From NCBI RefSeq assembly GCF_001465545.3, contig NZ_CP013480.3:3968001-4032000 (forward strand): DNA of 64,000 nt. Direction: 5' to 3'. Position numbers and translations under genes: made by a program. Source of the stretch: Pandoraea norimbergensis (lineage in GTDB: Bacteria; Pseudomonadota; Gammaproteobacteria; Burkholderiales; Burkholderiaceae). The notes beneath the pieces were generated by a model. It was not told the DNA's origin. It did no database searches and was given only the letters and a program-made list of their open reading frames with translations. Position 1 is the stretch's first letter. Each line of letters starts with the position of its first letter. Positions 56,438 through 64,000 of the stretch are shown here, piece after piece.

Positions 56438-57358
56438 ATGAACGCGATCGCCGATCTGGAATTCTTCGTGCGGCTGGTACGCCACGGCAGCCTGTCGTCG
56501 CTGGCCCGCGATCTCGGCGTGACCCCGCCCGCCGTCAGCGCCCGCTTGGCGTTGCTGGAGAAACGGCTCGGCGTGCGGCTGCTCAACCGCACCACGCGCC
56601 GTATCACGATGACCGAGGAAGGCGAGCGCTACCTGCGCGCAGGCTCATCGCTGCTCGAAGAAGTGCAGGAACTGGAGCGCATGGTGTCGAGCAGCCGCAA
56701 CGTGCCGCAGGGGTTGCTCAAGGTGAATGCCACGTTCGGCTTCGGGCGGCGGCACATCGTGCCGGCGCTCTCGGCGTTTCGGCAGCGCTATCCCGACGTG
56801 GAAGTGCAGTTGGAACTGACCGACCGGCCGATGAACCTCGCGGAGTCGGCTTTCGATGTGGGCATTCGACTGGGCGAATTACCCGACTCCCGCCTCGTGG
56901 CGAAACGGCTGGCCCATAACGAGCGCTTTGTCTGCGCGTCGCCAAGCTATCTGAACGGACGCACCCTGCCGCGCACGCCGGAAGATTTGCGCCAGCATCT
57001 TTGCATCGTGCTGCGCGAGAACGACACGGCCTACGGCACGTGGCATTTCAACAAGGGCAAGCGTCAGCAACCCGTGAAGGTGCACGGTGCGATGAGCAGC
57101 AACGACGGGGAAGCCACGCTGAAATGGGCACTCGACGGGCACGGCGTGCTCATGCGCTCGGCATGGGAGGTGCAATCGTTCATCGACGCAGGCCGACTCG
57201 TGCGGCTGCTGCCCGACTGGCACCTGCCCCCGGCGGACGTCTACGCGGTGTATCCCGAGCGACTGAATCTCTCGGCAAAAGTACGCGTGTTCGTCGACTT
57301 TCTGGAAGGACATATGCGGGATGCCGGCCACTGGGGCAGCTATCCGGCATCGGTGTGA
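56438..57358 (+). CDS. LysR family regulator, DmlR/TtdR-like
   Basis: 306 residues. HTH ADLEFFVRLVRHGSLSSLARDLGVTPPAVSARLALLEKRLGVRLL (5-50) and a substrate domain with LLKVNATFGFGRRHIVPALSAFRQRYPDVEVQLELTDRP, a pattern shared with DmlR and TtdR, which control D-malate and tartrate use. Divergent from leuCD and the carrier, which it probably regulates. The stop codon (57356-57358) lies inside a 12-bp tandem repeat, so repeat-length change could shift or delete the stop. Confidence 0.88.
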   Translation: MNAIADLEFFVRLVRHGSLSSLARDLGVTPPAVSARLALLEKRLGVRLLNRTTRRITMTEEGERYLRAGSSLLEEVQELERMVSSSRNVPQGLLKVNATFGFGRRHIVPALSAFRQRYPDVEVQLELTDRPMNLAESAFDVGIRLGELPDSRLVAKRLAHNERFVCASPSYLNGRTLPRTPEDLRQHLCIVLRENDTAYGTWHFNKGKRQQPVKVHGAMSSNDGEATLKWALDGHGVLMRSAWEVQSFIDAGRLVRLLPDWHLPPADVYAVYPERLNLSAKVRVFVDFLEGHMRDAGHWGSYPASV

Positions 57359-57407
57359 TCTTCGGTGTGATCTTCGGTGTGATCTTCGGTGTGAACTTGG
57401 TGTGAAC
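57351..57407. repeat. 12-bp tandem repeat spanning the LysR stop codon (about 4.7 copies)
   Basis: Unit CGGTGTGATCTT, three exact copies, then CGGTGTGAACTT and a partial copy. Every copy contains TGA in the LysR frame, and the array ends 2 bp before the convergent reductase stop. Confidence 0.8.
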
Positions 57408-57408
57408 G

Positions 57409-59061
57409 TCAGTAGACGTCGCGGCGATACCGGCCCGCTTCGGTGAGGGTGTCCAATACTGCGTTGCCGTCATGGCCAGACGCCCCAAGGATCTCGACGA
57501 GCGCGGCATGCACGGCGGGGGCCATGCCCTGCAAGCTGCCGCAGACATAGATTGCGGCACCGGCATCGACCCATGCGCGGATATCCGGCGCAGCGTGGCG
57601 CAAAGCATCCTGCACATAGCGCACGTCGCCGGCATCGCGCGACCACGCGAAATCCACACGTTCAATCACCCCGTCGCGCTGCCATTGCGTGATTTCGTCG
57701 GCGAAGAACGCGTCATGACGCGCATTGCGCTCACCGAAGAGCAGCCAGTTGCGACGCGCTCCCCGCGCGGCACGCGACTTCAGATGCGCGCGCAGACCGG
57801 CCAGCCCCGTGCCGTTGCCGATCAGAATCAGCGGCACGTCGTCAGCGGGTGGATGAAACGCGCGGTTGGTGCGCACACGCATTGCGATGCGCGTGTCGAT
57901 GGCGGCGTGCTTCGTGAGCCAACCCGACGCCAGCCCCAGACGGACGCCATCAGGCTGTGCCGAATCGGCATAGCGGGTCTGACGCACCAGCAATTCCAAC
58001 CGGCCGTCAGCAGGCAGCGACGCGAGCGAATATTCGCGATGCGGCAACGGCACGAGCGTATCGACAAGTGCCTGCGGCGTGTGTGCGACCATCGCGTCGC
58101 TGGCATCAGAAGCTGGCATGCGAGACGCCAGCGCCTGCGCAAGTGTCATCGATTCTCCGTTGCATTGCACGGCGGCATCGGCCGCGAAACCGGTATCGCG
58201 CAGCCAATCGGCAACGAACTGCGCCGAATGTCGCGGGCCAACTTCCACGATATCGCCCGCCTGCCAGTCGAGCGAAGTGGCACCGTCTTCCGGCACGAGT
58301 GATAGATGAAACGCCGGTGCGCCAACGCTATCCGGATTGAGCAGCACGCGTGATTGCAGACGCCATGACGCGTAACTCGGCGGTTCCCAATCGGCAATCT
58401 CTGCGCCGCCCGCCATGGCCGACAGCTGGTGCTGCCAGTGACGAATGGCACCGGCGTCGCCGTTGTCGACCTCGATGGTGTCGAACAGCGCCTGTGCGCC
58501 GCTCGCCTCCAGCCAATGGGTCAACCGATGCCCGAAGGCACAGAATTCCGTATAACTGCGGTCGCCCAGCGCCAGTACGCCGTAGCGCAGGCCGGGCAGT
58601 GCAAACGCACTGTTCATCATCTTGCGTGTGAACCCGGACGCGCTGTCCGGCACATCGCCCTCGCCCGTCGTGCTCACAATGAAAAGCGCTTGCCTGCACG
58701 CCATCAATGCGTCGGCGTTCAGTGCATCGATCGAGATCGGACGCACGGCGACACCCGCATCGCGCAAAGCCGTGGTCGTATTCACCGCGAGGAGTTCAGC
58801 GAAACCGGTCTGGCTTGCATAGACGACAAGCGTGGTCGATTCCGGCGGGGTCTCTGAACTCACGACTTCAAACGCGGATTGACGCGAGCGCCGTCGATGC
58901 GCGCCGATCACGGCGAGGCTTCCCGCAAGATAGGCGAGCAGCACGCCCCCTGCCATCAACGGACGCGCGTGACTCGCCCACGCCAGCGCGGCACCCGCCA
59001 CGGACGTTGCGCTCAACCCCAATGTGGACCAGTGGAACGCGGCAGACTTGACGGTATTCAT
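57409..59061 (-). CDS. membrane-anchored flavodoxin/NADPH reductase (sulfite-reductase alpha / CPR-like)
   Basis: 550 residues. Two N-terminal hydrophobic helices (about 8-28, 33-52), a flavodoxin FMN domain (TLVVYASQTGFAELLA, FIVSTTGEGDVPDSA, VLALGDRSYTEFCAFG), then an FAD/NADPH reductase unit (HREYSLASLP, LILIGNGTGLAGLRAHLKSR, WLLFGERNARHDAFF, IYVCGSLQGMAPAV). Diflavin enzymes of this form move electrons from NADPH through FAD and FMN to a heme or flavin partner, here facing or feeding the membrane. ATG 59061 overlaps the ApbE stop (ATGA). Last gene of the Fur-box-led operon, so likely the electron entry of the system. Confidence 0.85.
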   Translation of the reverse strand: MNTVKSAAFHWSTLGLSATSVAGAALAWASHARPLMAGGVLLAYLAGSLAVIGAHRRRSRQSAFEVVSSETPPESTTLVVYASQTGFAELLAVNTTTALRDAGVAVRPISIDALNADALMACRQALFIVSTTGEGDVPDSASGFTRKMMNSAFALPGLRYGVLALGDRSYTEFCAFGHRLTHWLEASGAQALFDTIEVDNGDAGAIRHWQHQLSAMAGGAEIADWEPPSYASWRLQSRVLLNPDSVGAPAFHLSLVPEDGATSLDWQAGDIVEVGPRHSAQFVADWLRDTGFAADAAVQCNGESMTLAQALASRMPASDASDAMVAHTPQALVDTLVPLPHREYSLASLPADGRLELLVRQTRYADSAQPDGVRLGLASGWLTKHAAIDTRIAMRVRTNRAFHPPADDVPLILIGNGTGLAGLRAHLKSRAARGARRNWLLFGERNARHDAFFADEITQWQRDGVIERVDFAWSRDAGDVRYVQDALRHAAPDIRAWVDAGAAIYVCGSLQGMAPAVHAALVEILGASGHDGNAVLDTLTEAGRYRRDVY

Positions 59062-60158
59062 GAATACATCGCCCGATAGGCGGGCGTCACTGTCTCGCGA
59101 AAACCGTCGGGAACACGCATCACAAAGCGTGCAGCGATGTCGCGTGCGGTAGCGAGTTGCATGCCCGCCTGCGGCCCGAGGACGGTGAGCGCGGTCGACC
59201 AGGCGTCGGCCAGCATGCACTCGCGATGCACTACGCTGACCGATGCCAATGCATGACTCGCCGGATACCCGGTGCGTGGATCGAGCGTGTGCGCATATCG
59301 CTTCGAAGGCTTCGAAGGCTTCGAAGGCGCTGACGCTTGCGATGCCTCCATGAAGAAACGGCGATAGTCGCCAGACGTCGCCACACTCAGCCCGTGCAAC
59401 GCAACGAGATCCTGCGCGATACCCGCGGCCTCGGACCCAGCTTCAGTCACAGGCGCTTCCAGTTCGACCCACCACGGCATGCCATCCGGTTTGACGCCCT
59501 CACCACGAAGCTCGCCGCCAATCTCGACAAGATGGTGCGCAATGCCTACGTCAGTGAGCGCCAACGACACGGCATCGACCGCGAAGCCCTTGGCAATCGC
59601 GCAGAGATCGAGCGAGATGCCGCCGGGTTGCTGCGCACGCTTGCTCTGAATGTCGAGCACCACGCGCGCCCAGCCGCAGCGCTCACGTGCGGATATCACC
59701 TCGTCCACACCCGGCGCCACATCGCGACGCGGTGCCGGGCCAAAGCCCCACAGGTCGACGAGCGGCCCCGCGCTGGGATCGTACGCACCACCGCTCTCGC
59801 GGGCGACACGCAGTGCCGTTTCCAGCACATGAAAGGCTTCGTCCGGCAGCTCAATCCATTGCCCTGCGTCTGCACGATTGAACGCGCTGATGTCAGAGTC
59901 TTCGCGCCAATTGCTCATCTGCGCGTCCACGCGCGCGAGGACCGCACGAATGCACGCGTCGGTCCCGCCGTCGTCGGATGTATCGGCAACGTCCGACGGC
60001 TGTACATACGCGACCGACCACGTCGTGCCCATCGTCTGCCCGGCCAGATGTCTGAGCCGCCCACCGACATGCGGTTGCACACCGGCAGACGTCATCTGCA
60101 ACGGTACGAGCACACGCGGCTCGTACCGTGCATCGACAGACAGGTCGAGAGGAGTCAT
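59058..60158 (-). CDS. apbE: FAD:protein FMN transferase (ApbE family)
   Basis: 366 residues. ApbE signature TMGTTWSVAYV, DAQMSNWREDSDISAFNR, GISLDLCAIAKGFAVD, GGELRGEG and HTLDPRTGYP with catalytic residues visible. Attaches FMN through a phosphoester to Thr/Ser of target proteins that act outside the cytoplasm. No clear signal peptide or lipobox is seen at the annotated N-terminus, unlike many ApbE, so localisation is uncertain. A 9-bp repeat (three copies) encodes Ser-Lys-Pro units near residue 275. The candidate substrate is the exported DUF2271 protein two genes upstream. Confidence 0.88.
   Translation of the reverse strand: MTPLDLSVDARYEPRVLVPLQMTSAGVQPHVGGRLRHLAGQTMGTTWSVAYVQPSDVADTSDDGGTDACIRAVLARVDAQMSNWREDSDISAFNRADAGQWIELPDEAFHVLETALRVARESGGAYDPSAGPLVDLWGFGPAPRRDVAPGVDEVISARERCGWARVVLDIQSKRAQQPGGISLDLCAIAKGFAVDAVSLALTDVGIAHHLVEIGGELRGEGVKPDGMPWWVELEAPVTEAGSEAAGIAQDLVALHGLSVATSGDYRRFFMEASQASAPSKPSKPSKRYAHTLDPRTGYPASHALASVSVVHRECMLADAWSTALTVLGPQAGMQLATARDIAARFVMRVPDGFRETVTPAYRAMYS
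59300..59326. repeat. nonanucleotide repeat inside apbE (3 copies)
   Basis: GCTTCGAAG three times; on the coding strand it gives the SKPSKPSK tract. In-frame, length-variable linker. Confidence 0.6.
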
Positions 60159-60197
60159 GGGCGCGAAGTGAGGACTAACCGGGGGCAGATTGCCGCC

Positions 60198-61019
60198 TTA
60201 CTGCGGCAGCACTTCCACGGTTGCGGCATAGGCCGCACGGCGTGCCTTGGCCGGCTTGATCGAGACCTTGTCGTCACGCACGTCGGCTTCGAGCCAGTAC
60301 ATGCCCGGCGCGGGCCACTTCACGCTGAACTTGCCGTCGGCATCGGTCGTTACCGACAGATCGTTGAGTTTGTCGCGGTAGCGAATGCCGCCCGGCACCA
60401 CTTCCACTTTCACGTTTGCCGCCGGCTTGCCGTCGTGCAGCAGACGGAAGCTCGCGGTGCTGCCGTCGACCAGATCGTTCGGATGCGAGATCGGCGCAAG
60501 CTCAAGCCCTTGACCCGTCGTCGCCAGCGCCGTCGTCGTGGGCTTGCCGCGCGTGACAAACGACTCCACACGCGACAGGCCTTCCGTGACTTGCAGGTCT
60601 TGCGCGTTAGCGGGTACTTCCTTCGCAAACGCTTCCGGCGAACCACGCCAGCGTTTGGTCTCGGTACCCACCTTGTAGCTTGCCGACAGCCCGTGGTTCA
60701 CCACGGCGATCTTGTACGTTCCGTCCTGCGTGAGATGCACGTCGAAGACGCTGCGATAGCGGCCCGTCGATGCGTTCTCGGCCTTCACCGGCTTGCCGTC
60801 CGGCGCCGTCACGACGAGCCCGTCCAGACGCATTGGGAAATGCTCGAAGTAGAACAGGTCGTTCGAGACCGCAGCATCCACCGTCACCCACGGATCGTTG
60901 CCCGACAGCACGGTGGCCGACGGCAGCAACCACTGACGGTGCGCCTGTGCGGCGAGCGGTGCCAGTGCGGCGATGGCCAATGCAGAGACGAGAGACAGCT
61001 TCTTCAGCGAGAACTTCAT
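60198..61019 (-). CDS. DUF4198 family periplasmic protein
   Basis: 273 residues. Signal peptide ending AAQA-H (about 26), then HRQWLLPSATVLSG and repeated Ig-like/carboxypeptidase-regulatory-like segments (VVTAPDGKPVKAENA, PGGIRYRDKLNDLSVTTDADGKFSVKWPAPGMYWLEADVRDDK). DUF4198 proteins are linked to metal (Co/Ni/Fe) handling and often co-occur with PepSY and ApbE genes. Presumed iron or siderophore-binding partner; no covalent-flavin motif seen here. Probably secreted into the periplasm. Confidence 0.85.
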   Translation of the reverse strand: MKFSLKKLSLVSALAIAALAPLAAQAHRQWLLPSATVLSGNDPWVTVDAAVSNDLFYFEHFPMRLDGLVVTAPDGKPVKAENASTGRYRSVFDVHLTQDGTYKIAVVNHGLSASYKVGTETKRWRGSPEAFAKEVPANAQDLQVTEGLSRVESFVTRGKPTTTALATTGQGLELAPISHPNDLVDGSTASFRLLHDGKPAANVKVEVVPGGIRYRDKLNDLSVTTDADGKFSVKWPAPGMYWLEADVRDDKVSIKPAKARRAAYAATVEVLPQ

Positions 61020-61080
61020 GATCAGCTCCTGTACAGCGATTCTGGAAAAAGGAATTCGGTCGTGAGGCGGCAGTCGCGGC

Positions 61081-61605
61081 TCAGGGCTTCACGCTCAGCG
61101 ACACCGCGCCGAGTTCGTGCTCACCCTTGACCTGCGCCGACTTCGCGTCGGCAGGCGGCCACGTGAACGGCACGCGAATCAGTTCGCGACCGCCCACTTC
61201 ACGGGCCGCTTCCACCACGAGTTGGTACTCACCGGCGGCCAGCTTGCCCAGCGGTGCTTTGCCGTCGACAAAAGTCAGCGAGTGCTCACCGGGGGCTCTC
61301 GTCGCACCCGACACACCGTCGGCCGGCATCGTCATGTCGCGCCCTGCCTTACGCCACCACTGGCGCATGTCCTTGAGCCACTTGGTGCCTTCGGCATTCT
61401 TGAGCTTGCCGTCGTACCAGACCGACAACGTGGTCACGGGCGACTGATCCGCCTTTTCGATCCACATCGCCACATACGGACGGTGATACTCCGCCACGTT
61501 CAGACGCGGAATTTCGACCTTGACGGTCATCTCGGCGGCCGCCGCATTTCCCGCGAATGGTGCTGCCACCAGACCGGTCAACGTGACGGAAAGCATTCGA
61601 CGCAT
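61081..61605 (-). CDS. DUF2271 family exported protein, candidate FMN-modified redox carrier
   Basis: 174 residues. Signal peptide ending NAAAA-E (about 25). Mature beta-rich domain (MTVKVEIPRLNVAEYHRPYVAMWIEKAD) with DGVSGATRAPGEH at 96-108; D-x-x-S-G-A-T is the ApbE target consensus, making Thr102 (codon 61302-61300) the likely flavinylation site. Neighbouring apbE and a PepSY protein support this. It would carry electrons in the periplasm. Family function otherwise unknown. Upstream 140 bp contains short direct repeats (GACACTAGC twice at 61687-61704). Confidence 0.82.
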   Translation of the reverse strand: MRRMLSVTLTGLVAAPFAGNAAAAEMTVKVEIPRLNVAEYHRPYVAMWIEKADQSPVTTLSVWYDGKLKNAEGTKWLKDMRQWWRKAGRDMTMPADGVSGATRAPGEHSLTFVDGKAPLGKLAAGEYQLVVEAAREVGGRELIRVPFTWPPADAKSAQVKGEHELGAVSLSVKP

Positions 61606-61744
61606 GGCTATCCCCTATCGAGCAAACCTCGGGTTGAGTTCAGATTGAAGTACTAAGAAAACGCTATCGACGCTGTCGACGCAACCGACACTAGCGACAC
61701 TAGCGACGCGCGCCCCGATCCGGTCGCTGCGTCTCGGTGAATGC

Positions 61745-62380
61745 TTAGTGAATGAACAAGATGACGAGCAGCAGCGGGATGACGAGCCCCAGACCGACCA
61801 GCGGCCACGTCGCCACGCGGTTGCCCGCATGCAGCTTGAGCAGAAACAAGCCGGTCACGCTGAACACCAGACACGCCAGCGCAAACACGTCGATAAAGAG
61901 GCTCCACGCATTGCCGGTATTGCGGCCCTTGTGCAGGTCATTCAAATAGGAAATCCAGCCGCGCGTGGTCAGTTCGTACTGGGTCTCACCGCTCTGCAAA
62001 TCCACACTCACCCACGCATCGCCACCGGGACGCGGCAATGCGACGTAAATTTCGTCAGCCGACCACTCGGCCTCTCGGCCCTCGGCATCGATGGCGAGCG
62101 ACGTGTGCAGCCAATCGGCGAGCGCCGCCGGTACCGGGCCTTTGTCCTTGTGGGGTGTCTCGCCAAGCTGCGTCAGCAGGGCATCGGGCACCTGCGCCGC
62201 GCGCTTGACGACTTGGGGGTGAGCTTCGATCTGACCTGCGTGGTTGAGCGTGAAGCCCGTGATCGCGAACAGCATCATGCCGAGCAGACAGATCGCCGAA
62301 CTGATCCAGTGCCACTGGTGCAGATGTTTGAGCCAGAACGCGCGCCGCTGCCGGCCGGCACCGAGCTGGAGTTCGTTCAT
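61745..62380 (-). CDS. PepSY-associated membrane protein
   Basis: 211 residues. TM1 (about 25-45, WISSAICLLGMMLFAITGFTLNH) preceded by KHLHQWHW, a soluble central PepSY-like region (about 50-150), and two C-terminal helices (about 168-187 and 195-211). His residues at the membrane faces (His21, His24, His47, His158, and one in LKLHAGN) could ligate heme, as in other PepSY_TM reductases. First gene of the operon, 112 bp behind a Fur box. Likely transfers electrons across the inner membrane to the flavinylated partner. Confidence 0.82.
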   Translation of the reverse strand: MNELQLGAGRQRRAFWLKHLHQWHWISSAICLLGMMLFAITGFTLNHAGQIEAHPQVVKRAAQVPDALLTQLGETPHKDKGPVPAALADWLHTSLAIDAEGREAEWSADEIYVALPRPGGDAWVSVDLQSGETQYELTTRGWISYLNDLHKGRNTGNAWSLFIDVFALACLVFSVTGLFLLKLHAGNRVATWPLVGLGLVIPLLLVILFIH

Positions 62381-62491
62381 TGCGGAATTCGGGACATCAA
62401 AGCGAGCCTAGGGATGGCGGGCATGGCAGTCATCGTAGTGTCATGGCGAGCCGACATTCGCGCGCCGCACTATCTCAGGGAAACTGAAAAG

Positions 62492-62510
62492 TGCAATGAT
62501 AATCGTTTGC
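62492..62510 (-). promoter_or_regulatory. Fur box of the PepSY-DUF2271-DUF4198-apbE-reductase operon
   Basis: TGCAATGATAATCGTTTGC matches 13 of 19 positions of the E. coli Fur consensus, including the core AATGATAATC. Located 112 bp upstream of the first start codon and flanked by TGCAA/TTGCA symmetry. Confidence 0.75.
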
Positions 62511-62666: not shown

Positions 62667-63401
62667 TTACCAGCGCACGGTCACCCCGGCCAGCCACGAG
62701 TAATCGTAGGTCTGCGGGTTGAGTCCCCGGCGATAGCCCACGTCCAGATCGAGCCACGGCTTGGGGCTGTAGATGGCACCGACAATCATGAACGCCGGGC
62801 TGGTCGGCTGTGCGAAATCGGGGTTCTGCGACGTACCGATATCGAGCAGCAGGCGAGTCGTCGGCAGCACGCGATACAGCACGGCCCCCGAGACTTTCCA
62901 GACCGTCTCGCGCACGCCCTGCCGGTTCGGTTGATACACGGCGCCGCCGTTGACAAGGAACGTCCAGTCGTCGATTTCGTATTGCGCGAGCAAGGTTGCG
63001 CCGGCGTTCACGCGACCTGTGCCGAGGCCGCGCGAGTCGTTGCCGGTCGGGAGCGTGAGGTAAGGCTTGAGGCCGAGGCTGAAGGCGCCGTCGTCATACA
63101 GCCGCCATTTCGCGCCGAGTTCCAGATCGGCGATGCCGGTCGCCGCGGTATCGGAGCGTTGTTGCACGTGGGTGTACGGCACGTTGGCGTAGAGATCCAG
63201 CGCTTCGCCGAAGCCACGCGTGAGCGTGCTGTTCCAGAGAAATTGACGGCCCGTATCGGGTTGCTTGGCGGTGGCTTCGCCATTCGTTTCGAACTGCCAG
63301 TTGCCATCGCCTTGGGTGCCCGTGTCGTCGGTCACGAGCGGATGCGCGGCGAAGGCGCTGAGGGGACAAGCCAAAGCCAGCGAGATGAGTTGCTTCTTCA
63401 T
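62667..63401 (-). CDS. outer-membrane transporter-like beta-barrel protein
   Basis: 244 residues. Signal peptide MKKQLISLALACPLSAFAA, then a beta-barrel pattern with alternating aromatic strands (WQFETNGEATAKQPD, FLWNSTLTRGFGEALDLYANVPYTHV, LGLKPYLTLPTGNDSRG) and C-terminal WLAGVTVRW. Resembles the 'phenol MetA degradation / transporter' outer-membrane family. Start 63401 gives the signal peptide; 63422 is an alternative with better SD. Terminator follows. Transcribed toward the Fur-operon but separated by that terminator. Confidence 0.75.
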   Translation of the reverse strand: MKKQLISLALACPLSAFAAHPLVTDDTGTQGDGNWQFETNGEATAKQPDTGRQFLWNSTLTRGFGEALDLYANVPYTHVQQRSDTAATGIADLELGAKWRLYDDGAFSLGLKPYLTLPTGNDSRGLGTGRVNAGATLLAQYEIDDWTFLVNGGAVYQPNRQGVRETVWKVSGAVLYRVLPTTRLLLDIGTSQNPDFAQPTSPAFMIVGAIYSPKPWLDLDVGYRRGLNPQTYDYSWLAGVTVRW

Positions 63402-63555
63402 GAGTCGTTCGCTCTTTTTCATGCTGCCCCACGTGCGCTGCACGGGGGCTTGTGTGGGTCACCTGCCCGCGCCCGTCCACCGGACGGACGGGCGCGGGCA
63501 TGGCTGCGTGTGGTGCAGTGGTGGGTGGTGGGTGGTGGCTGCCTGAGACCTCAGC

Positions 63556-64000
63556 TCAGAACCAGCGGCCGAAGCGGCGGATGTAGATCGTCTTCACCGT
63601 CTGTGCGAGCGCGATGTAGCCGAGCATGGTGGCCGCCAGCCAGTAGAAGTACGAGCCCGGCAGGCTGACGAAACCGAGTGTTTCGGCAAACGGCGAATAC
63701 GGCAGCCAGCAAGCGATAGCGATGGCCACGGTCGTCGAGAGCATGATCGGCAGCGCCGGCGTGCTTTGCAGGAATGGAATCTTCTGCGTGCGCAGCAAGT
63801 GCACCACGAGCGTCTGCGAGACGAGCCCTTCAATGAACCAGCCCGAATTCATGATGACCTGACCGCCACTGCCGCCGTGCAGGTGATACATCGCACCGGC
63901 ACCGAAAACGGTCCACAACAGCGCATAAGTCGTGATATCGAACACCGAGGAGGTCGGTCCGATCCACAGCATGAAGCGGCGGATGTTGCCCGCGTCCCAC
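63556..64000 (-). CDS. mgtA: magnesium-translocating P-type ATPase MgtA, C-terminal part (5' end outside window)
   Basis: Open to the window edge; the last about 147 residues are visible: WDAGNIRRFMLWIGPTSSVFDIT, SGWFIEGLVSQTLVVHLLRTQKIPFLQS and the C-terminal IYIRRFGRWF, matching MgtA/MgtB closely. Four C-terminal membrane helices. Imports Mg2+ in low-Mg conditions. Regulatory leader would be outside the window. Confidence 0.9.
   Translation of the reverse strand, partial: WDAGNIRRFMLWIGPTSSVFDITTYALLWTVFGAGAMYHLHGGSGGQVIMNSGWFIEGLVSQTLVVHLLRTQKIPFLQSTPALPIMLSTTVAIAIACWLPYSPFAETLGFVSLPGSYFYWLAATMLGYIALAQTVKTIYIRRFGRWF

Follow-up and report, generated by a model that had tools for sequence, protein, structure and literature searches.

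We describe here a five-gene operon from Pandoraea norimbergensis that encodes an inner-membrane PepSY protein, a DUF2271 protein, a DUF4198 protein, the flavin transferase ApbE and a diflavin reductase. It lies in a 64,000-nucleotide stretch of contig NZ_CP013480.3 (hereafter the window, C1:3968001-4032000) of a genome that forms a single contig of 6.17 Mb. We propose that this is a Fur-controlled operon for the assimilation of ferric iron, in which DUF2271 is loaded with flavin mononucleotide (FMN) by a cytosolic ApbE before it is exported by Sec, a reading that in our judgement stands at an even balance. Cytosolic attachment of the flavin is suggested by the absence of an export signal from ApbE and the presence of a Sec-type signal on DUF2271. 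The operon itself is a member of a published kind, as both the gene block and the iron-reduction proposal are already in print, and we regard its signal-less ApbE as a variant within established flavinylation rather than a novel system.

A signal-less ApbE and its probable exported partner

An earlier note on this DNA had DUF2271 flavinylated by an ApbE that was implied to act outside the cytoplasm. The substrate half of this claim gains support from a conserved ApbE site in DUF2271 (DGVSGAT); the location was not borne out. The window ApbE has the ApbE domain and conserved residues in the catalytic region, but neither the N-terminal signal peptide nor the lipobox of exported, lipoprotein-type ApbEs. 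Its N-terminus reads MTPLDLSVDARYEPRVLVPLQM, no in-frame start gives a leader, and its signal score is 0.014. Scores come from a classifier of our own, trained because a first hydrophobicity score failed to separate weak DUF2271 leaders from the ApbE N-termini of Cupriavidus. The positives were 70 de-duplicated DUF4198 N-termini and 6 exported Escherichia coli proteins and the negatives 64 cytosolic E. coli proteins, the E. coli proteins being classed by their accepted location; the cross-validated area under the curve was 0.998, the specificity at 0.5 was 0.94, and each score is the best over all start codons within 75 residues.

We compared two sets of loci: a close set, the best 80 of 526 PepSY relatives in genome contigs, and a distant set of 78 DUF2271 places over cut-off in a sample of 74 genomes from the phylum. 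The sets overlap, since L113 and L024 appear to lie on one contig. Only 13 of 126 separate, operon-linked ApbEs scored above 0.5 (9/78 close, 4/48 distant), and three scored above 0.8 (two close, one distant); of these three, L079 and L130 look real, and L062 is an internal methionine. For ApbE genes at other places in these genomes, the products exceeded 0.5 in 43/52 cases and 0.8 in 39/52 (52 of 54 were scored, two weak ones, G344 and G249, being left out). ApbE-DUF2271 fusions scored above 0.5 in 6/6; L187, which was put among the fusions on its length only, has no ApbE match.

It is possible, though we think it improbable, that the same ferric-reductase chain operates with an ApbE that enters the periplasm by an unrecognised route and flavinylates DUF2271 after export, as in NQR/RNF. 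Extracytosolic flavinylation is the rule (PMC12052999), the operon ApbEs of L079 and L130 have clear signals, and Meheust et al. treated the A. ursilacus ApbE as signal-bearing (PMC8238504). However, this explanation must accommodate the very low score of the window ApbE, the 113 of 126 operon ApbEs that stay at or below 0.5 over every start within 75 residues, and the ordinary leaders of most other ApbEs in the same genomes.

Two features of the ApbE N-terminal region and coding sequence may be recorded here. A loose motif, R-[VI]-L-[IV]-P, occurs near the N-terminus of signal-less ApbEs (55/78 close and 13/48 distant, against 1/52 of those encoded elsewhere) and is perhaps a docking element. 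In the window, a 9-bp tandem repeat (59300-59328, unit GCTTCGAAG, 3.2 copies) encodes SKPSKPSK, an insertion missing from nearly all aligned orthologues.

The DUF2271 site fits the published [ST]GA[ST] motif, and its acceptor threonine or serine is kept in 158/158 aligned loci. No other operon protein has such a site: it is absent from the PepSY, DUF4198 and ApbE alignments, and the 109 reductase rows hold one loose match. As the earlier note had supposed, DUF2271 and DUF4198 are both predicted to be exported, with signal scores of 0.82 and 0.99, and DUF2271 signals score above 0.5 in 146/151 loci and above 0.8 in 83/151. Export of folded, flavinylated DUF2271 by the twin-arginine (Tat) route is unlikely, the strict twin-arginine motif being found in 0/151 DUF2271 signals; RR-x-hydrophobic occurs in 48/151 leaders, among them the MRRML of the window. 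We also looked for loss of the site where the operon has no ApbE and did not see it: the acceptor is still threonine or serine in 25/25 such loci, and the G-A pair varies among them. This retention fits an ApbE encoded elsewhere in those genomes. A search of solved structures by sequence returned no relative of DUF2271.

Some ApbE-linked DUF2271 proteins carry proline instead of alanine just ahead of the acceptor (TSPT, TGPT, SSPT, TQPT) and depart from the published motif (L031, L035, L036, L039, L043, L069, L114, L116, L117, L119, L120, L122, L123 and L127). A second DUF2271 group (L172-L189) has an [ST]GAS site in 17/18 loci, L187 differing, and is in most cases accompanied by an ApbE that lacks a signal and by a protein, roughly 740-920 residues long, whose C-terminal part resembles the reductase.

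Published findings agree with loading before export. When the DUF2271 of A. ursilacus and its cognate ApbE were produced in E. coli, both lacking signals, the ApbE flavinylated the DUF2271 (PMC8238504); the locus (L023) has the same gene order, and its ApbE does not belong to those that score as signal-bearing. ApbE accepts short peptide tags as substrates, while an engineered light-oxygen-voltage (LOV) protein, once folded, did not take up the label (PMC10722498). The lumen of SecYEG may be as wide as 2.4 nm when open (PMC6028853). Several points weigh against cytosolic loading. A Klebsiella study, cited in PMC12052999, suggests by its title that a cytosolic ApbE does not act on Nqr subunits that are exported; Meheust et al. 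termed their A. ursilacus apbE construct signal-peptide-truncated (PMC8238504); the Cupriavidus ApbE N-termini (M-x-RVLIPVALSA) score borderline; the A. ursilacus DUF2271 signal scores only 0.34; and the classifier is home-made.

Distribution of ApbE and its substrates among genomes

We searched 397 genomes of the phylum with PF10029 and found DUF2271 over cut-off in 75, namely this genome and 74 others, all counts below being per genome, with related genomes not independent. ApbE is present in 74/74 of the others. It adjoins a separate DUF2271 in 48 genomes of 14 families, and in 32 of these 48 (11 families) the operon ApbE is the sole ApbE of the genome. The same holds for P. norimbergensis, where a genome search found no second ApbE. 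Of the 32 sole ApbEs, 29 score at or below 0.5, and those of G210, G171 and G082 score 0.57-0.67. FMN_bind and DUF3570 proteins were each found in 0/33 genomes with a sole operon ApbE, this one included, which leaves DUF2271 as the only known substrate family there; in P. norimbergensis we likewise found no site in the other operon proteins.

The remaining genomes are arranged differently. In 23 genomes of 10 families there is no local ApbE, and 23/23 have a signal-bearing ApbE elsewhere (22 score above 0.8; the exception, G124, scores 0.596 with a lipobox recognised by eye) and carry FMN_bind proteins. Sixteen genomes have both a local and a further ApbE, with FMN_bind in 14, and three have only ApbE-DUF2271 fusions, with FMN_bind in none. 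One confirmed PepSY-DUF2271 fusion (L156), in which the DUF2271 part is expected to lie outside from the beginning, occurs in a genome whose ApbE (L191) scores 0.994. By these counts, the distribution reads as two solutions, either an exported ApbE shared with FMN_bind proteins or a dedicated cytosolic ApbE.

A signal-less ApbE could instead modify an unknown cytosolic protein, with DUF2271 not its substrate. There is precedent in Klebsiella, where a cytoplasmic ApbE without a signal peptide acts on fumarate reductase, but that substrate remains in the cytosol and the one proposed here bears a Sec-type signal (PMC12052999). The same review names as cytosolic the ApbEs for this soluble fumarate reductase and those of two eukaryotes. 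We give this explanation a low probability, given the absence of FMN_bind and DUF3570 from the 33 sole-ApbE genomes (a search that did not extend to substrates of unknown family), the reaction of the A. ursilacus DUF2271/ApbE pair (PMC8238504) and the ApbE that accompanies DUF2271 in every other DUF2271 genome. In the accessible parts of the open-access literature, we found no published statement that ApbEs of PepSY/DUF2271 clusters lack signals or act before export.

Gene order and predicted iron control

The five co-directional genes reported by the earlier note are all on the minus strand and all above the Pfam cut-off (Table 1). The gaps from PepSY to ApbE are 139, 61 and 39 bp, and the overlap it described between the ApbE stop and the reductase start is a 4-bp ATGA; we take the reductase start as ATG 59061, the longer open reading frame from GTG 59220 being a mechanical call. 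The statement that these parts occur together in other genomes is supported, all five genes being present in the same order on one strand in 77/80 close loci; the other three (L013, L019, L071) are short or clipped contigs ending within the operon. The closest named loci are those of Pandoraea (L002-L004; PepSY identity 94-100%).

Table 1. Features of the operon, in window positions
Feature	Position	Strand	Basis
PepSY_TM_like_2 inner-membrane protein, 211 aa	61745-62380	minus	PF16357, 1.6e-87
DUF2271 protein, 174 aa, predicted exported, candidate flavinylated electron carrier	61081-61605	minus	PF10029, 7.3e-54
DUF4198 protein, 273 aa, predicted exported, candidate metal-binding protein	60198-61019	minus	PF10670, 6.6e-61
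ApbE, FAD (flavin adenine dinucleotide):protein FMN transferase, 366 aa, without signal peptide	59058-60158	minus	PF02424, 2.2e-81
Diflavin reductase, 550 aa, Flavodoxin_1 and NAD_binding_1, hydrophobic N-terminal segment	57409-59061	minus	Pfam
Fur-like box, 19-mer	62492-62510		13/19 to consensus, 111 bp before PepSY start
ApbE-site codons D96-G-V-S-G-A-T102 in DUF2271	61300-61320	minus	alignment; residue numbering from translation

The component set has been published. Among the PepSY-like flavinylation clusters of Meheust et al., which combine PF16357/PF03929 proteins, DUF2271 with an ApbE site, DUF4198 and ApbE, 2833 have DUF2271 and 1500 have DUF4198, and iron reduction was proposed; these clusters were, however, presented as extracytosolic flavinylation (PMC8238504). 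The window operon has features of such clusters: a PF16357 protein adjoining DUF2271 and ApbE, an [ST]GA[ST] site, and a signal on at least one of ApbE, FMN_bind, DUF3570 and DUF2271, here on DUF2271. In Caulobacter crescentus, of another bacterial class, CC3059-CC3063 (CCNA_03155-03159) encode five components in the same order (transporter, DUF2271, DUF4198, ApbE, sulfite-reductase flavoprotein), with Fur sites, Fur binding, repression by iron and derepression in a fur mutant (PMC3751524). Its PepSY protein was assigned to COG3295, the VciB iron-reductase group, and disruption of the operon lowers fitness in ethylenediaminetetraacetic acid (EDTA) (PMC12004947).

The Fur-like box lies in the promoter region of the P. 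norimbergensis operon, as in a Fur regulon, at a measured 111 bp from the PepSY ATG where the earlier note gave 112. We scored it against GATAATGATAATCATTATC, which we take to be the Fur consensus. Only 6/500 mononucleotide shuffles of the 400-bp upstream stretch scored at least 13. Matches of at least 12/19 precede PepSY in 72/80 close and 28/43 distant loci, compared with 152/1230 random 450-bp windows from the same loci, so that a Fur-like box at this place appears more often than chance would give. A pattern derived from the window's own site, AATGATAATCNTT, occurs four times in the 6.17-Mb genome, and its reversed control does not occur. Apart from the site of the operon itself, one (87378) lies upstream of a gene for an extracytoplasmic function (ECF) sigma factor, then FecR, followed closely by a match to a TonB-receptor plug; another (4035538) belongs to a further locus of ECF sigma, FecR and TonB-receptor genes, some 5 kb away from the operon and beyond the window; a third (4535942) is 41 bp ahead of the predicted start of an NRAMP transporter gene (L262:7943-9313, genome 4535942-4537312). 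The box enrichment, the company kept by the genomic sites and the published regulation of the Caulobacter orthologue together argue for the iron-linked control that the earlier note had inferred.

FeoB was not found in the genome with PF07664; two NRAMP proteins and one FTR1 are present. With FeoB not found, the Fur-boxed NRAMP is the most likely candidate for the Fe(II) importer.

The receptor genes raise the possibility that the chain serves one ferrisiderophore from a nearby TonB receptor, as proposed for FoxB/HiuB, and not ferric iron generally. The Fur-boxed ECF sigma, FecR and TonB-receptor genes upstream of the operon (L259:5530-9806, genome 4035529-4039805) are also found near it in L002-L004. 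The association with TonB receptors that the earlier note proposed to look for was found in part: receptors like those of this genome lie beside the block in 17/80 close and 33/77 distant loci, but most loci have no adjacent receptor detected; the receptor counts may be underestimates, as BLAST was run with this genome's receptors. Sigma/FecR neighbours appear in 6/80 close loci under the same BLAST limit. The FoxB and HiuB siderophore reductases are iron-linked membrane PepSY proteins with conserved histidines (PMC12424826, PMC11334425), but the match to FoxB is weak, with no Foldseek hit at E<=0.001. On balance, we judge dedication to a single siderophore unlikely.

The proposed electron chain and its meaning

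A chain from reduced nicotinamide adenine dinucleotide phosphate (NADPH) through the diflavin reductase and PepSY to DUF2271 is plausible by analogy, and its steps (NADPH, diflavin reductase, PepSY, FMN-DUF2271, ferric iron) follow the published proposal. Electrons from NADPH would enter the membrane-anchored reductase, whose nearest solved relatives are CysJ and P450 reductase, at the cytosolic face. PepSY would take them across the inner membrane, probably via two bis-His hemes; we infer candidate ligands from the conserved His21/24, 47, 150 and 184 of the alignment, and no solved relative of PepSY was found by sequence. The covalent FMN of DUF2271 would accept the electrons in the periplasm and reduce Fe(III) or a ferrisiderophore, and Fe(II) would enter through a transporter encoded elsewhere, the Fur-boxed NRAMP being the first candidate. 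For DUF2271 to be ready, ApbE would attach FMN to its precursor in the cytosol, the place of FAD synthesis, before Sec exports the modified chain.

DUF4198 may hold or escort the metal through its N-terminal histidine. The mature protein is predicted to start at His27, and this His1 is conserved in the alignment. Its model matches the folds of Zcp (9MHM) and of Ni-bound IsDUF4198 (9GCB) at about 16-17% identity, 9GCB being found by fold search only and not by sequence searches. These matches leave room for an operon concerned with a metal other than iron (Ni, Co, Zn or Cu) bound by DUF4198, with iron control secondary: Zcp has Cu-, Zn- and Co-bound forms, and IsDUF4198 prefers Ni (PMC12537917). 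Nevertheless, residue 18 is Trp where 9GCB, whose ligands are His1 and His18 of the mature protein, has its second His ligand for Ni (a position assigned by sequence only), the context here is iron and not nickel, with a Fur-like box, and the orthologous operon responds to iron and Fur (PMC3751524) and affects EDTA fitness (PMC12004947). We therefore hold a primary role for another metal to be quite improbable.

The surroundings of the operon include a 12-bp tandem repeat (57350-57405, unit TCGGTGTGATCT, 4.8 copies) at the convergent ends of a LysR gene and the reductase gene, with the LysR stop inside the repeat. Upstream on the same strand are genes for a Phenol_MetA_deg-type protein and an MgtA-like P-type ATPase (62667-63999 and L259:1557-4322). 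We left both out of the system, as they are conserved beside the operon in only 3/80 close loci, all Pandoraea.

The flavinylation of redox proteins that are exported is regarded as extracytosolic and as requiring FAD there, and a 2025 review calls the supply of FAD to ApbE obscure (PMC12052999). Tentatively, and with slightly less than even confidence, we suggest that DUF2271 proteins, a large class of flavoproteins in the proteobacterial periplasm, acquire their FMN in the cytosol from signal-less ApbEs and are exported by Sec with the covalent flavin attached, no export of FAD being needed, and that genomes choose between this dedicated route and a shared exported ApbE of the NQR/RNF type. 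The genome-wide Fur-box result, for its part, points to NRAMP as the likely importer of Fe(II) in a genome in which FeoB was not found. If DUF2271 does receive its flavin prior to export, the FAD-supply problem would not arise for many of the published PepSY/DUF2271 iron-reduction clusters, and Sec would prove able to transport a native covalent flavin.

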